From a virus, in IMG/VR virus record IMGVR_UViG_3300008459_000363, positions 1 through 24,791 of that record: 24,791 nt of DNA; one strand, given 5' to 3'. The notes beneath the pieces are model-generated. The model was not told the origin of the DNA and did no database searches. It saw only the letters and a list, made by a program, of their open reading frames with translations. The position numbers and the translations under genes are program-made. Shown here one piece after another: positions 5,594-10,237 of this stretch. Position 1 is the first letter of the stretch. Every line of letters begins with the position of its first letter.

Positions 5594-5935
5594 ATGAATA
5601 CTGATTTTATTGTTTTCGACGACAAAAAGTTTTCTGATCTATTGAGAGATATCTATATCAACTCAAAGAAAAAAGAAACACAAATTAATGGATTAATTGA
5701 TGGCTTAAAACCGCTAATAAAAAATGTAGCGGATGCATCAATGATGGTACCTTTGATTAAGGAATACTTAGAGGTATCAGTAAAAAACGATGAGCATTTA
5801 GTTAGATTAGCAAGCATAGTACAAAGATTACTAATAGCAGCAGATAAAGGAGATAAAGACGATGGTCTATTATCAGACGCTGAGCGTAAACAGCTACTTA
5901 GTGAGGCCCAAGATCTACTTGATAAAAATAGATAA
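5594..5935 (+). CDS. Small helical protein at head of hub operon
   Basis: A 113-residue, mostly helical protein. Its conserved-looking core is INSKKKETQINGLIDGLKPL (about 22-41), continuing through a second amphipathic helix pair and an acidic C-terminus (DAERKQLLSEAQDLL). It has no Cys, no membrane segment and no enzyme motif. The next gene, the first hub protein, begins on its last stop base (TAATG). By position it may be a hub assembly factor or a small structural component, comparable to the small hub-assembly proteins of T4, but I see no sequence link to any of them. Confidence 0.6.
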   Translation: MNTDFIVFDDKKFSDLLRDIYINSKKKETQINGLIDGLKPLIKNVADASMMVPLIKEYLEVSVKNDEHLVRLASIVQRLLIAADKGDKDDGLLSDAERKQLLSEAQDLLDKNR

Positions 5936-7461
5936 TGTCTGCAAATGGCTCTTATTTTAAAGGGTGGTCAAGTACACTACCCTACATACCAAGTGGCTTA
6001 CCTTATCAAGGCAGTAGCTGGCTAAGGATTGGTCAGGTTCTCAGTGTTGATTATAAAAACGAGCTTGGTAAGATAAGAGTGCGATTATTTGGAATTGCAA
6101 AAGAGGACAATGATGATGATATCAACGTGGAAGCATATCCCGTTGACATGAACATGGTTAAGTATCCATTACCGGGTGAGTTAGTACAGCTTGTTGTTGG
6201 TATACAAGCACAAACTAGAAAATCAAAATTCACAAACACATACTATTACATCAGTGTACTTGCAACAAACAGAAGCATAACATTTAATAGTGATCCTTAC
6301 ATAGGAAGAACATTACCAGCTAACATAGCTGAATTAACCTATTTTACTCCGGACTATAATAGTCGCTTTGAAAAAAAGCTACAAAATTTTGATTCCTTTA
6401 TAAGTAAAACAGAAACTGGTAATGTTGTTAAAAATAAACCATCTCTTAAACCAAGTGAGGGGGATATTATAGTACAGGGTAGGTTTGGTTCAAGAGTTAG
6501 ATTAGGTAGTACGTCAGTAGCAGTTGACTTGCTTAGCATATTAGAAGATGGTGTTCCCAATGAATGGTCTGAAAGAGGAGGGGCTGCTGGAGATCCCATA
6601 ATGATACTATCAACGGATAGAGCAACTACTGATGAAATTACTTATGAGCAATCAGATGAGACAGATTCTATAGTTTATGTATCATCACAACAAACCATAC
6701 CAGTATCACTATCCACATCAGCACAACTTAAATCACACATCTATTTATATAATATAGCAGACTTAACTACTAACGATGATCAAACTGATTTTATGGAAAC
6801 AAAACCAGAACCTCCACAATTAAGTTATCCAATTATTGAATTGAACCTAGGCTTTAGTGGTAGTTATGATAGTAGCGACTTCGGTAAGTTGGTAGGGTTA
6901 GTTATTGATAATTTTGAAGGTGGTTACTTTCATCCAAAAATGTTACAAGATGGCAGAGTTAGGGATAGTAGATATGCTGGCAGTGGTGAAACTATGTTTG
7001 GAATCGATAGAAAAACCGGTGGAACATTAAACACATCACCAGCAGGCAAACAGTTTTGGGCATTGATAGACGCAGCAAATGCTGCTAATACATGGCCATG
7101 GAATCACTTTGGTGGTAATTTAGCACCACAACTAAAAGAGTTGGTTGGGCAAATGATGGAACCACATTACACTTCACTATTGTCAAGGAGATTTTCTCAA
7201 GCTGAGATGCAAGTAATTAATAGTGACCCAAGATTAGTCATGCACTTTGTTTATGCTTCGTGGAATGGATCAGGTTGGTTTGCTAAATTTGCATCAGATG
7301 TAAAAAAAGCAATACAATCTGGAATTGTAGATAAAGATCAATTAGCTGCAATCACAATAAAATCAAGAACTGAAGAGGGTCTGAGGGAAGGATCTAGTCC
7401 TAATAGTCTCATAGCTCAAGGAGGTAGAAAAATGGAACAACTTTATACTAGACTAGCATAA
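5935..7461 (+). CDS. 5: Baseplate hub/spike protein with C-terminal lysozyme-like domain (gp5-like)
   Basis: A 508-residue protein. Residues 1-290 match the next gene product closely: SYFKGWSSTLP, then an OB-fold-like segment with GKIRVRLFGI, KYPLPGELVQLV, TYYYISVLATNRS and FNSDPYIG, then EGDIIVQGRFGSRVRLGSTS and GGAAGDPIMILS. This resembles the N-terminal barrel of T4 gp5. Residues 315-508 form an enzyme domain: VIDNFEGGYFHP with candidate catalytic E328, then GSGETMFGIDR (350-359), the 'EGG ... G.T.FGI' pattern of GH108-like phage lysozymes. It should cut peptidoglycan glycan strands during tail penetration, as the gp5 lysozyme does. A roughly 14-residue insert near residue 196 is absent from the paralogue. 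Start and stop are TAATG/short-gap junctions. Confidence 0.82.
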   Translation: MSANGSYFKGWSSTLPYIPSGLPYQGSSWLRIGQVLSVDYKNELGKIRVRLFGIAKEDNDDDINVEAYPVDMNMVKYPLPGELVQLVVGIQAQTRKSKFTNTYYYISVLATNRSITFNSDPYIGRTLPANIAELTYFTPDYNSRFEKKLQNFDSFISKTETGNVVKNKPSLKPSEGDIIVQGRFGSRVRLGSTSVAVDLLSILEDGVPNEWSERGGAAGDPIMILSTDRATTDEITYEQSDETDSIVYVSSQQTIPVSLSTSAQLKSHIYLYNIADLTTNDDQTDFMETKPEPPQLSYPIIELNLGFSGSYDSSDFGKLVGLVIDNFEGGYFHPKMLQDGRVRDSRYAGSGETMFGIDRKTGGTLNTSPAGKQFWALIDAANAANTWPWNHFGGNLAPQLKELVGQMMEPHYTSLLSRRFSQAEMQVINSDPRLVMHFVYASWNGSGWFAKFASDVKKAIQSGIVDKDQLAAITIKSRTEEGLREGSSPNSLIAQGGRKMEQLYTRLA

Positions 7462-7463
7462 CT

Positions 7464-8870
7464 ATGTCATCAGGAGGTGGATCATATTTTAAAGGTTGGG
7501 CAAGTACACTCCCACACATACCATCAACACCAGTTGGTAATGACTTCCGTGAAATATGGATGGGGCATGTATTGGAAATTGATTACACTAATGAAATAGG
7601 TAAAATCAGAGTTCGATTAGTTGGAGTGTCTAAAGAACAATCAGACGACGACATACAAATATATGCATACCCAGCAGATTTAAACATTATAAAATATCCA
7701 CTACCTGGAGAATTAGTTTATTTGGTAGAGGGACTTCAGGGTAGTACTTACAAAAGCAAATTTGCATCTACATACTACTACATAACAACAATATCAAGTA
7801 ATCGTAGTGTAACATTCAATAGTGATCCATATATAGGTCAAACGGTACCCGAAAAAATTGCGAGCACAATATATACACCAGAGTATGAACATAGATTTGA
7901 GAAGAAGTTAGATTCTCCGGAAAGTTTTATACAAGGTAATAATAAAATTAAAGGAAAGGCACCTCTCAAACCATATGAAGGTGATTTCATACTACAAGGT
8001 CGCTTTGGATCAGCACTACGTTTAGGTAGTACGAGTACCACAAAAGCAAATGAGTGGTCTTTAAATGGTGGAGCAGCAGGTAATCCAATTATGATACTGT
8101 CTGTTAATAGAGCAACATCTGATGATACACATTCTGAAAAAGTAAACGAGATAGATTCAGCAATTTATTTATGTACATCACAAGCAGTGCCAGTTAAGAT
8201 AGCATCATCGCAGGATCTTAAATCTCATAAATACAGATATGATGTTAAGACTAATGAAGGAGACTTATTCCAATCAGTAGAAGATATAACACGAGCATTG
8301 GAGACAGAAGCGCAAGAAGCACAAGAAGCGGATAGAGATAATGCTGGTTTTGATACGGGTCAAATTAATCCAAATCTACCTGCAGGAACAAATGGTAACT
8401 TATCACAATCCCAGCTTAAAAAGACCACAATGGGTATCACGCTGGAAATAGAAGCAGCAGAAGCGTGGGATAGACTAGTGGCAGCTGCAAGAGCAGATGG
8501 TGTTCCGGATATAAGTGCATCAGGTGGATATAGACCATATGCAACTCAACAAGCAATATTTGATTGGGACTTGTATGTAGCTACGGGTGGATCTAGGACT
8601 GATACAAAACCAACACCAGGAGCCAAGAGAAAGAAAAAAGGAAGTAATGGATCTGTGGCAGTAGCATTCCCAGGAACATCTAACCATGGTTGGGGTAGAG
8701 CGGTGGATGCATCTGGTAAGAAATTTAAAAAGTGGTTAAAGGTGAATGGATGGAAATATGGATGGTCCTGGTACGAAGGTAGATCTGTAGGTGAGGATTG
8801 GCATTTTACATACACAAAAGATACTGCATTGTTAAAGAGCTATGTAAGCTATACTGATTGGAATACGTAA
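7464..8870 (+). CDS. Baseplate hub paralogue with C-terminal VanY/M15B peptidase domain
   Basis: A 468-residue protein starting 2 nt after its paralogue. Residues 1-270 repeat the shared hub part (SYFKGWASTLPHIP, GKIRVRLVGV, KYPLPGELVYLV, TYYYITTISSNRS, FNSDPYIG, LQGRFGSALRLGSTS, GGAAGNPIMILS). A Gln/Glu/Ala linker (ETEAQEAQEADRD) leads to a complete M15B domain: SGGYRPYATQ (353-362), NHGWGRAVD (407-415; zinc ligands H408 and D415) and EDWHF (444-448; base E444, ligand H447). M15B enzymes cut D-Ala-containing peptide stems. The shared N-terminus puts it at the baseplate hub, so this tail would carry a peptidase beside the glycosidase of its neighbour. The enzyme assignment is strong; co-assembly is inference. 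Confidence 0.83.
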   Translation: MSSGGGSYFKGWASTLPHIPSTPVGNDFREIWMGHVLEIDYTNEIGKIRVRLVGVSKEQSDDDIQIYAYPADLNIIKYPLPGELVYLVEGLQGSTYKSKFASTYYYITTISSNRSVTFNSDPYIGQTVPEKIASTIYTPEYEHRFEKKLDSPESFIQGNNKIKGKAPLKPYEGDFILQGRFGSALRLGSTSTTKANEWSLNGGAAGNPIMILSVNRATSDDTHSEKVNEIDSAIYLCTSQAVPVKIASSQDLKSHKYRYDVKTNEGDLFQSVEDITRALETEAQEAQEADRDNAGFDTGQINPNLPAGTNGNLSQSQLKKTTMGITLEIEAAEAWDRLVAAARADGVPDISASGGYRPYATQQAIFDWDLYVATGGSRTDTKPTPGAKRKKKGSNGSVAVAFPGTSNHGWGRAVDASGKKFKKWLKVNGWKYGWSWYEGRSVGEDWHFTYTKDTALLKSYVSYTDWNT

Positions 8871-8886
8871 ACAAAATTAATACAAA

Positions 8887-9690
8887 ATGGAATTACAACA
8901 AAAAGTAGATAGACTCTTTCAAGTAAATTTGACTGGCCAAGAAACACAACGGTCAATAAAAGATGTTCTACAATTAAATAAAACAAACAATGGTCACAGA
9001 AATGCTTATGCTAATGGCAGTTCTGTTATTATTAATTCCGATAGACTTATCTTTAATGCAAAGAAAGATCATTTGTTTTTGTGTGGTAATGAAGGTGTAA
9101 CAATAACATCACCAAAGTCAGTGCACATTGATGCAGATGATGATGTTTACATATTTTCAAACACAGGAGAAATTTATTTAGGATTACCTAATAGAGGGGA
9201 GAAGTATGATCAATTACCTGCACCTAAAACAAAAGCAGACGCAACACTCAACTATGCTTACGAACCAATGGTACTGGGTTTAAAATTAGCAAATCTACTA
9301 GAGGACTTTATTGTAATTATGAGAGATGCAGTAATCCGTACACCATCTGGAGACGGTAGGATGTCTGTTGAGATGATGTATAATTTAGAAAGTTTACAAT
9401 CTAGAATACCTGAAATGCTGTCTACAGTTGCATTTATAGAAGGTATATCTCACGATAAACCAGATGCAGCACCACAAGTACCATCGGGTACAGATGACCC
9501 AGCACAGCTACCAACACCATCTCTATTAACTGAAATAGCAACGGCAGGAAATACAACATCAGGTACAACAACTACAGCAACAAACACAAATTTAAATAAC
9601 ACTGTTGCACCAGTAATACTACCACAAAGTTTATTAAACGCTATACAAGGCAATATGTCTAATAATCCAGATGGACCAATAACACAATAA
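8887..9690 (+). CDS. Tail spike (needle) protein with beta-helix segment
   Basis: A 267-residue protein. Residues 44-101 show short alternating strands (SSVIINSDRLIFNAKKDHLF, GVTITSPKSVHIDADDDVYI, GEIYLG) like the intertwined trimeric beta-helix of the T4 gp5 C-terminus and VgrG spikes. A helical block follows (PMVLGLKLANLLEDFIVIM, 127-145), as commonly found after such spikes, and the last 70 residues are Thr/Ala/Pro/Asn-rich and probably disordered. T4 gp5 holds barrel, lysozyme and spike in one chain; here the spike appears to be a separate gene right after two barrel-plus-enzyme genes. It lacks an obvious His/Cys iron-binding tip, so a PAAR-like tip may be encoded elsewhere. Confidence 0.7.
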   Translation: MELQQKVDRLFQVNLTGQETQRSIKDVLQLNKTNNGHRNAYANGSSVIINSDRLIFNAKKDHLFLCGNEGVTITSPKSVHIDADDDVYIFSNTGEIYLGLPNRGEKYDQLPAPKTKADATLNYAYEPMVLGLKLANLLEDFIVIMRDAVIRTPSGDGRMSVEMMYNLESLQSRIPEMLSTVAFIEGISHDKPDAAPQVPSGTDDPAQLPTPSLLTEIATAGNTTSGTTTTATNTNLNNTVAPVILPQSLLNAIQGNMSNNPDGPITQ

Positions 9691-9691
9691 T

Positions 9692-10237
9692 ATGAAATTT
9701 GTAAAATATCACAATGTTGTAGTACCATCGGCAGTAAAAGACAGCTTTGCGGCATTGGCAGAAAAGGTCTATGCCAATATAGGTTTTGTAATTGAGCCAA
9801 TGGATGGGTTTAAGACAAAGGAACAAGTAATTCAAGAGTTGAGAGGCAGAATAAAAAGTCCAGATAAATTAAAAGTAGATGATGATCAATATGTTGAAAT
9901 CTTGGCTGCAACATCTCCTCTAAGCTTTGAACCACCCCTAATTGGCAACACAACAGCATTAAGAGATCCAAGTGGCCAAGAGATAGTATTCACAATACCA
10001 AACAAAATACCAGGTGATCCTAGATTAAGTGGTAGAATTGTGCAGATAGGACCAAAAAATCTAATCAATCCAACATTACTGTATTTTCTTGTACAGAATG
10101 CTGGATCTTATGGATTTTTACATTATGGACCAAAAGATCCATCCATATGGTATTGGAGAGGTGATAAAACACCACATACCTACACACCACAGGAAACTGT
10201 GTCAACATTTACAAACGAATTATCCTACTTGCTATAA
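9692..10237 (+). CDS. Baseplate-block protein resembling an M15 peptidase without catalytic residues
   Basis: A 181-residue protein starting 1 nt after the spike stop and ending in a TAATG overlap. Its C-terminal half parallels the M15B domain of the second hub protein in order and spacing: PRLSGRIVQI (110-119) against NHGWGRAVDA, then LVQNAGSYGF (133-142) against the WL..NG..YGW helix, then SIWYW (151-155) against EDWHF. Each zinc or catalytic position is changed: His to R111, Asp to Q118, Glu to S151, His to Y154. If the alignment is right it is a pseudoenzyme with a structural or cell-wall-binding role. The similarity is short, so an unrelated baseplate protein remains possible. Confidence 0.55.
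   Translation: MKFVKYHNVVVPSAVKDSFAALAEKVYANIGFVIEPMDGFKTKEQVIQELRGRIKSPDKLKVDDDQYVEILAATSPLSFEPPLIGNTTALRDPSGQEIVFTIPNKIPGDPRLSGRIVQIGPKNLINPTLLYFLVQNAGSYGFLHYGPKDPSIWYWRGDKTPHTYTPQETVSTFTNELSYLL

Follow-up and report, generated by a model that had tools for sequence, protein, structure and literature searches.

Two adjacent genes in a viral contig raise the question of how one tail tip might come to carry two kinds of peptidoglycan-cutting enzyme. Within the stretch of DNA analysed here (24,791 nucleotides, hereafter the window), hubA (5935-7461, 508 aa) and hubB (7464-8870, 468 aa) adjoin each other on the plus strand as intact open reading frames, with baseplate genes (gp25-like and gp6-like wedge) in their neighborhood. 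A preliminary description had taken them for paralogues alike in their N-terminal halves, and protein alignment bears this out (52% identity and 69% positives over 299 aa, E=1e-100). Each comprises a core (hubA, 5935-6780, residues 1-282; its paralogue in hubB, 7464-8267, residues 1-268) and a C-terminal head (hubA, 6844-7458, approximately residues 304-508; hubB, 8376-8867, residues 305-468), all on the plus strand. The likeness ends where the heads start, and the heads are unrelated to each other. No third copy of the core was found in the 24.8-kb window, even at relaxed thresholds. The reading we favor, at a probability of roughly 60%, is that hubA and hubB are paralogous subunits of one central-spike ring, most simply a mixed trimer in 2:1 proportion. 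As to a bacterial host, the sole match in genome contigs was a short contig of an Actinomycetota MAG. The window also holds a separate M15_3 peptidase gene (537-1007; PF08291, 70.8 bits), which is probably an endolysin.

By prediction, the cores correspond to the OB barrel and neck of a gp5/VgrG/P1-type central spike from a contractile tail, in keeping with the hub barrel that had been expected of the N-terminal halves. In AlphaFold models of hubA and hubB (mean pLDDT 83), residues 27-258 fold into an OB barrel followed by a neck, with pLDDT over 90 across most of the OB barrel. Over these residues, the best tail-related match to the core was a phage P1 baseplate chain (9vzk_q), followed by a Streptomyces injection system (CIS, 9gtr), VgrG, AFP, and T4 gp5, and the hubA model aligns to the T4 gp5 structure 1k28 across both domains. 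These matches are of modest strength (Foldseek E 0.0012-0.0024 at best; VIA Z about 6-7) and partly context-based, and we count this against the mixed trimer; they are backed independently by the many relatives in which needle sequence is fused to the C terminus of the same core in one open reading frame. In both chains the OB barrel comes first, from about residue 27 onward, and there is no gp27-like hub domain. The needle is likewise not in the same chain, as it is in gp5 and VgrG spikes, and is encoded by a separate gene (8887-9690, plus strand), a split of spike from core that goes beyond the preliminary description.

The two heads appear to be different wall enzymes, as had been proposed. 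That of hubB is predicted, from sequence and model, to be a VanY/M15B zinc peptidase: residues 326-451 match VanY (PF02557) at 53.1 bits (Pfam cut-off 25), and model residues 300-462 match VanYB with Z 11.7. H408, D415, E444, and H447 all lie where they had been placed, and the motifs SxHxxGxxxD and ExxH (here SNHGWGRAVD and EDWH) are intact; these zinc and catalytic motifs are kept in three relatives (L003, L009, and L011). The hubA head is a putative lysozyme-fold muramidase with E328 as its catalytic Glu. Its predicted residues 304-508 match lysozyme folds (VIA; pesticin Z 8.2, GH24 endolysins Z 7.2-7.6), and within its motif EGGYFHP..SGETMFGID both E328 (in E-G-G-Y) and the SGETMFGID residues (S350, E352, T353, G356, and D358) are invariant in 24 aligned members. 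The lysozyme-like character first suggested for this domain therefore stands, on predicted fold and invariant Glu, but membership of Pfam GH108 does not. Neither the hubA head nor its 23 aligned relatives match PF05838 (GH108) or any other Pfam family, and since the hubA head has no meaningful match in Pfam, PHROG, or NCBIfam, the GH108 label is not supported by sequence and was dropped at that level.

A search of viral contigs found the hubA-head family at 37 loci. Some members are standalone proteins, others form the end of longer ones, and one sits on a needle paralogue (L218). The 24 aligned members have E-G-G-Y, P, M, S-x-E-T, G, and D columns in common, and sequence searches of solved structures with the family gave chance matches only. 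The family, with its motif EGGYYHPNM..SGETMFGID..NGxGWF, is present in at least 24 distinct phage proteins (window 6844-7458, alignment A5) and has no counterpart in Pfam, PHROGs, or NCBIfam.

The central spikes known so far sit on the tail axis as trimers. In the arrangement we propose, the common core (OB barrel plus neck) would make a ring of C3 symmetry, set between tail hub and needle, the latter being a separate protein. Because a trimer has three chain positions, duplication of the core would let one ring hold different wall enzymes, and the two genes of the window imply a 2:1 mix; that a trimer built from two genes requires a 2:1 or otherwise mixed stoichiometry is a second point we count against this reading. 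The ring would bear a lysozyme-like head through hubA and a VanY-type peptidase through hubB, and we infer that upon contraction the needle would breach the outer layer while, around it, glycan and stem peptide would be cleaved by the heads.

Close relatives retain the pair of cores with varying armament. L003/L208 has the same pair with both cores armed as in the window, L009 has a bare core followed by a core-VanY protein, and L011 has a core-VanY protein followed by a bare core. As L009 and L011 each arm one of two cores, the core pair is kept more strictly than the enzyme pair. Whether relatives always keep both copies, a point raised in the preliminary description, thus has a divided answer: two or three cores are kept, but both enzymes are not always kept. 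Between the window and L208, dN/dS is 0.081 for the hubA core and 0.085 for its head, 0.131 for the hubB core and 0.075 for its head, and 0.063 for the needle. These values (0.06-0.13) indicate that hubA and hubB are under purifying selection in cores and heads alike, and together with the divergence between hubA and hubB they rule out a recent, decaying duplicate.

Many other relatives have one core and one needle, with GH108 (PF05838) encoded separately and a VanY domain in the gene that comes next. Standalone neighbor genes in L013 and L017 match PF05838, and in L013, which has a single core, standalone GH108 and VanY (8715-10058 and 6921-7847) are on neighboring genes. Glycan-cutting and peptidase functions close to the tip are hence common in the group, and their placement on paralogous ring subunits would be a derived state. 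The 181-aa gene that follows the needle in the window (9692-10237, plus strand) resembles the N-terminal part of VanY-bearing proteins of single-core relatives. Its longer relatives have a C-terminal VanY domain that is absent in the window, and the gene may have lost its enzyme when hubB gained one. The occurrence of muramidase and VanY on separate neighboring genes in many relatives makes a covalent link to the ring unnecessary, and could suit a different account in which the second core serves outside the mature ring, in an auxiliary structural role or as a chaperone, and its head is a released enzyme. However, both cores are equally conserved and selected, with OB and neck segments kept, and triplets with orthologous slots (below) are stable; we consider this account very improbable.

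We surveyed copy number in 96 distinct loci, a non-random sample from searches seeded with these genes, using as upstream boundary the 113-aa gene (5594-5935, plus strand, in the window) that lies directly 5′ of the first core gene in the relatives read. Single cores are fused to the needle at 42/96 loci and unfused at 36/96, with a separate needle detected in 34 of these 36. Two tandem cores occur at 4/96 loci, three at 10/96, and two or three needles at 4/96; none of the 96 has four or more copies, and none has both layers multiplied. Three tandem cores lie upstream of one separate needle in L210, L229 (L130), L236, L238, L239, L243, L245, L287, L290, and L291. C-terminal enzymes differ between copies in most three-core loci. 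Conversely, a single core is accompanied by three tandem needles in L231 and L235, L230 has three needles on a contig without a core, L218 has two needles, and L237 is cut by the contig end; the heads on these needle paralogues are Phage_lysozyme2, M15, VanY, SGNH-like, and the lys5 family. Loci with exactly three tandem cores or needles, and with swapped heads, were not part of the preliminary description. Because the three-copy loci come from few lineages, the limit of three rests on about five independent multi-copy origins. Protein searches of 50,697 phage records found no isolates with multi-copy cores or needles.

This range of copy numbers bears on a second account, that hubA and hubB each form a homotrimer and that the rings are piled between tail hub and needle, with three rings at three-copy loci. 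Stacking is favored by the fact that the cores are complete OB-plus-neck units and that homotrimers are the rule in solved relatives. In gp27-gp5 and in VgrG, the OB ring sits on the tail hub above and runs into the neck below, and a spike ring that docks and continues in this way leaves a second OB ring without an obvious site. Stacking would also leave unexplained both the copy limit of three and the lineage that triplicated its needle instead of its core, and we regard it as unlikely.

Phylogenies and head comparisons show that positions within the triplets are stable and that their heads are exchangeable. In the core tree, p1, p2, and p3 each form single groups within L229/L243/L245 and within L236/L238/L239, and the needle tree likewise unites each of p1, p2, and p3 across L230/L231/L235, p2 with weaker support (89/85). 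The slots in these three-core and three-needle groups are therefore orthologous, and the triplets are old and maintained. The three cores of L210 sit in the window clade of the core tree, so its third core arose separately and the number three has been reached at least three times. The hub2 proteins of L236 and L238 have cores that are 75% identical but M23 and VanY heads, respectively; those of L243 and L290 have cores 70% identical and unlike heads, and L231 and L235 share 50-56% identity in their needles, with heads that are unlike at each of the three positions. In the reverse case, window hubB and L011 hub1 are 45% identical in their cores and 70% in their heads. No direct match was found between two heads of one locus. 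Curated or near-curated head matches comprise M23, VanY, M15_4, Phage_lysozyme, Phage_lysozyme2, and GH19, while the SGNH-like, CHAP/NlpC-like, and L,D-transpeptidase-like heads, together with part of the GH24-like ones, were assigned solely by eye. One needle head, GGHGAYWPKG...GIHYSSFRARG (L231 5663-7027 and L246 112-1479), has no Pfam match above cut-off. Charge and slot-diagnostic columns, examined for signs of a fixed interface, showed no complementary pattern.

Another possibility is that each virion uses a homotrimer of one paralogue, chosen at random or by regulation, such that virions carry different enzymes. Conservation and co-transcription of both copies would suit this account, as would the reported ability of T6SS to use alternative VgrG versions. 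Against it, the headless cores retained in L009, L011, L236, and L238 would give enzyme-less virions, copy number stops at three, and hubA and hubB lie 2 bp apart on the same strand with no sign of switching; we judge it a shade less probable than stacked rings. Both of these accounts are less economical than the mixed trimer. Bare cores should be retained if the ring requires the core copy as such, and the maximum of three copies, the multiplication of one layer only, the stable slots, the exchangeable heads, and the bare copies all fit one mixed trimer. We further give slightly better than even odds to a broader proposal, that in several lineages of uncultured contractile-tailed phages a homotrimeric spike repeatedly became a mixed trimer by duplication of core or needle, with chain positions serving as slots for exchangeable enzymes and three genes yielding an A:B:C trimer with broken threefold symmetry.

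Several known systems resemble the window in part. T4 gp5 likewise has an OB domain, a lysozyme-fold head, and a triple-stranded needle at the tail tip and is trimeric, but it is one gene, a homotrimer, and carries one enzyme, whereas the window has a separate needle and an OB-plus-enzyme part in two paralogues. Heterotrimers of VgrG have been proposed in Vibrio cholerae and Aeromonas dhakensis, although the apparent heterotrimer requirement in A. dhakensis was later attributed to effectors and not to VgrG itself (PMC8668125). Like V. cholerae VgrG1/2/3 (T6SS), a set of paralogous spike subunits that differ in their C-terminal domain or lack one, hubA and hubB are paralogous spike chains whose C-terminal domains differ. 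Unlike VgrG, a bacterial machine component with hub, OB, and needle in one chain, the window encodes tandem phage baseplate cores without hub domain or needle, all predicted to deliver wall enzymes. The tail-tip ring protein gp15 of Anabaena phage A-1(L) has glycan-cutting and peptidase activity (PMC10966104), but both reside in one chain of a homotrimer, and it is the hub that bears the enzymes, not a set of spike paralogues. CBB_240 of phage CBB, a gp5 OB protein with lysozyme and a weak M23 match for which two enzymes were suggested (PMC5259590), is also a single chain from a single gene. The nearest isolates, Microcystis phage Mel-JY01 and Flavobacterium phage immuto, have a homologous core, the 113-aa neighbor, and baseplate synteny, but a single copy of the core, which in Mel-JY01 is fused to needle sequence, with an enzyme on a neighboring gene. 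Adjacent "lysozyme" and "carboxypeptidase" virion proteins of Cyanophage S-SCSM1 differ in their N-terminal parts and are not core paralogues. The literature searched, with most subscription journals outside it, contains no phage heterotrimeric hubs or spikes and no spike paralogues with different wall enzymes, in agreement with the preliminary description, which knew of no described example; one-chain dual enzymes and VgrG heterotrimers are the known precedents.

If the mixed trimer is correct, the phage tail tip would be a rack holding up to three exchangeable wall-cutting tools instead of a symmetric trimer, and such a tip would have arisen independently in several lineages. This would explain how a phage can bring several enzyme types through a single needle, and it would link symmetry breaking to the number of gene copies, a link open to direct test. 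The loci are also a source of tail enzymes not yet classified, among them a family with a lysozyme fold that Pfam lacks.
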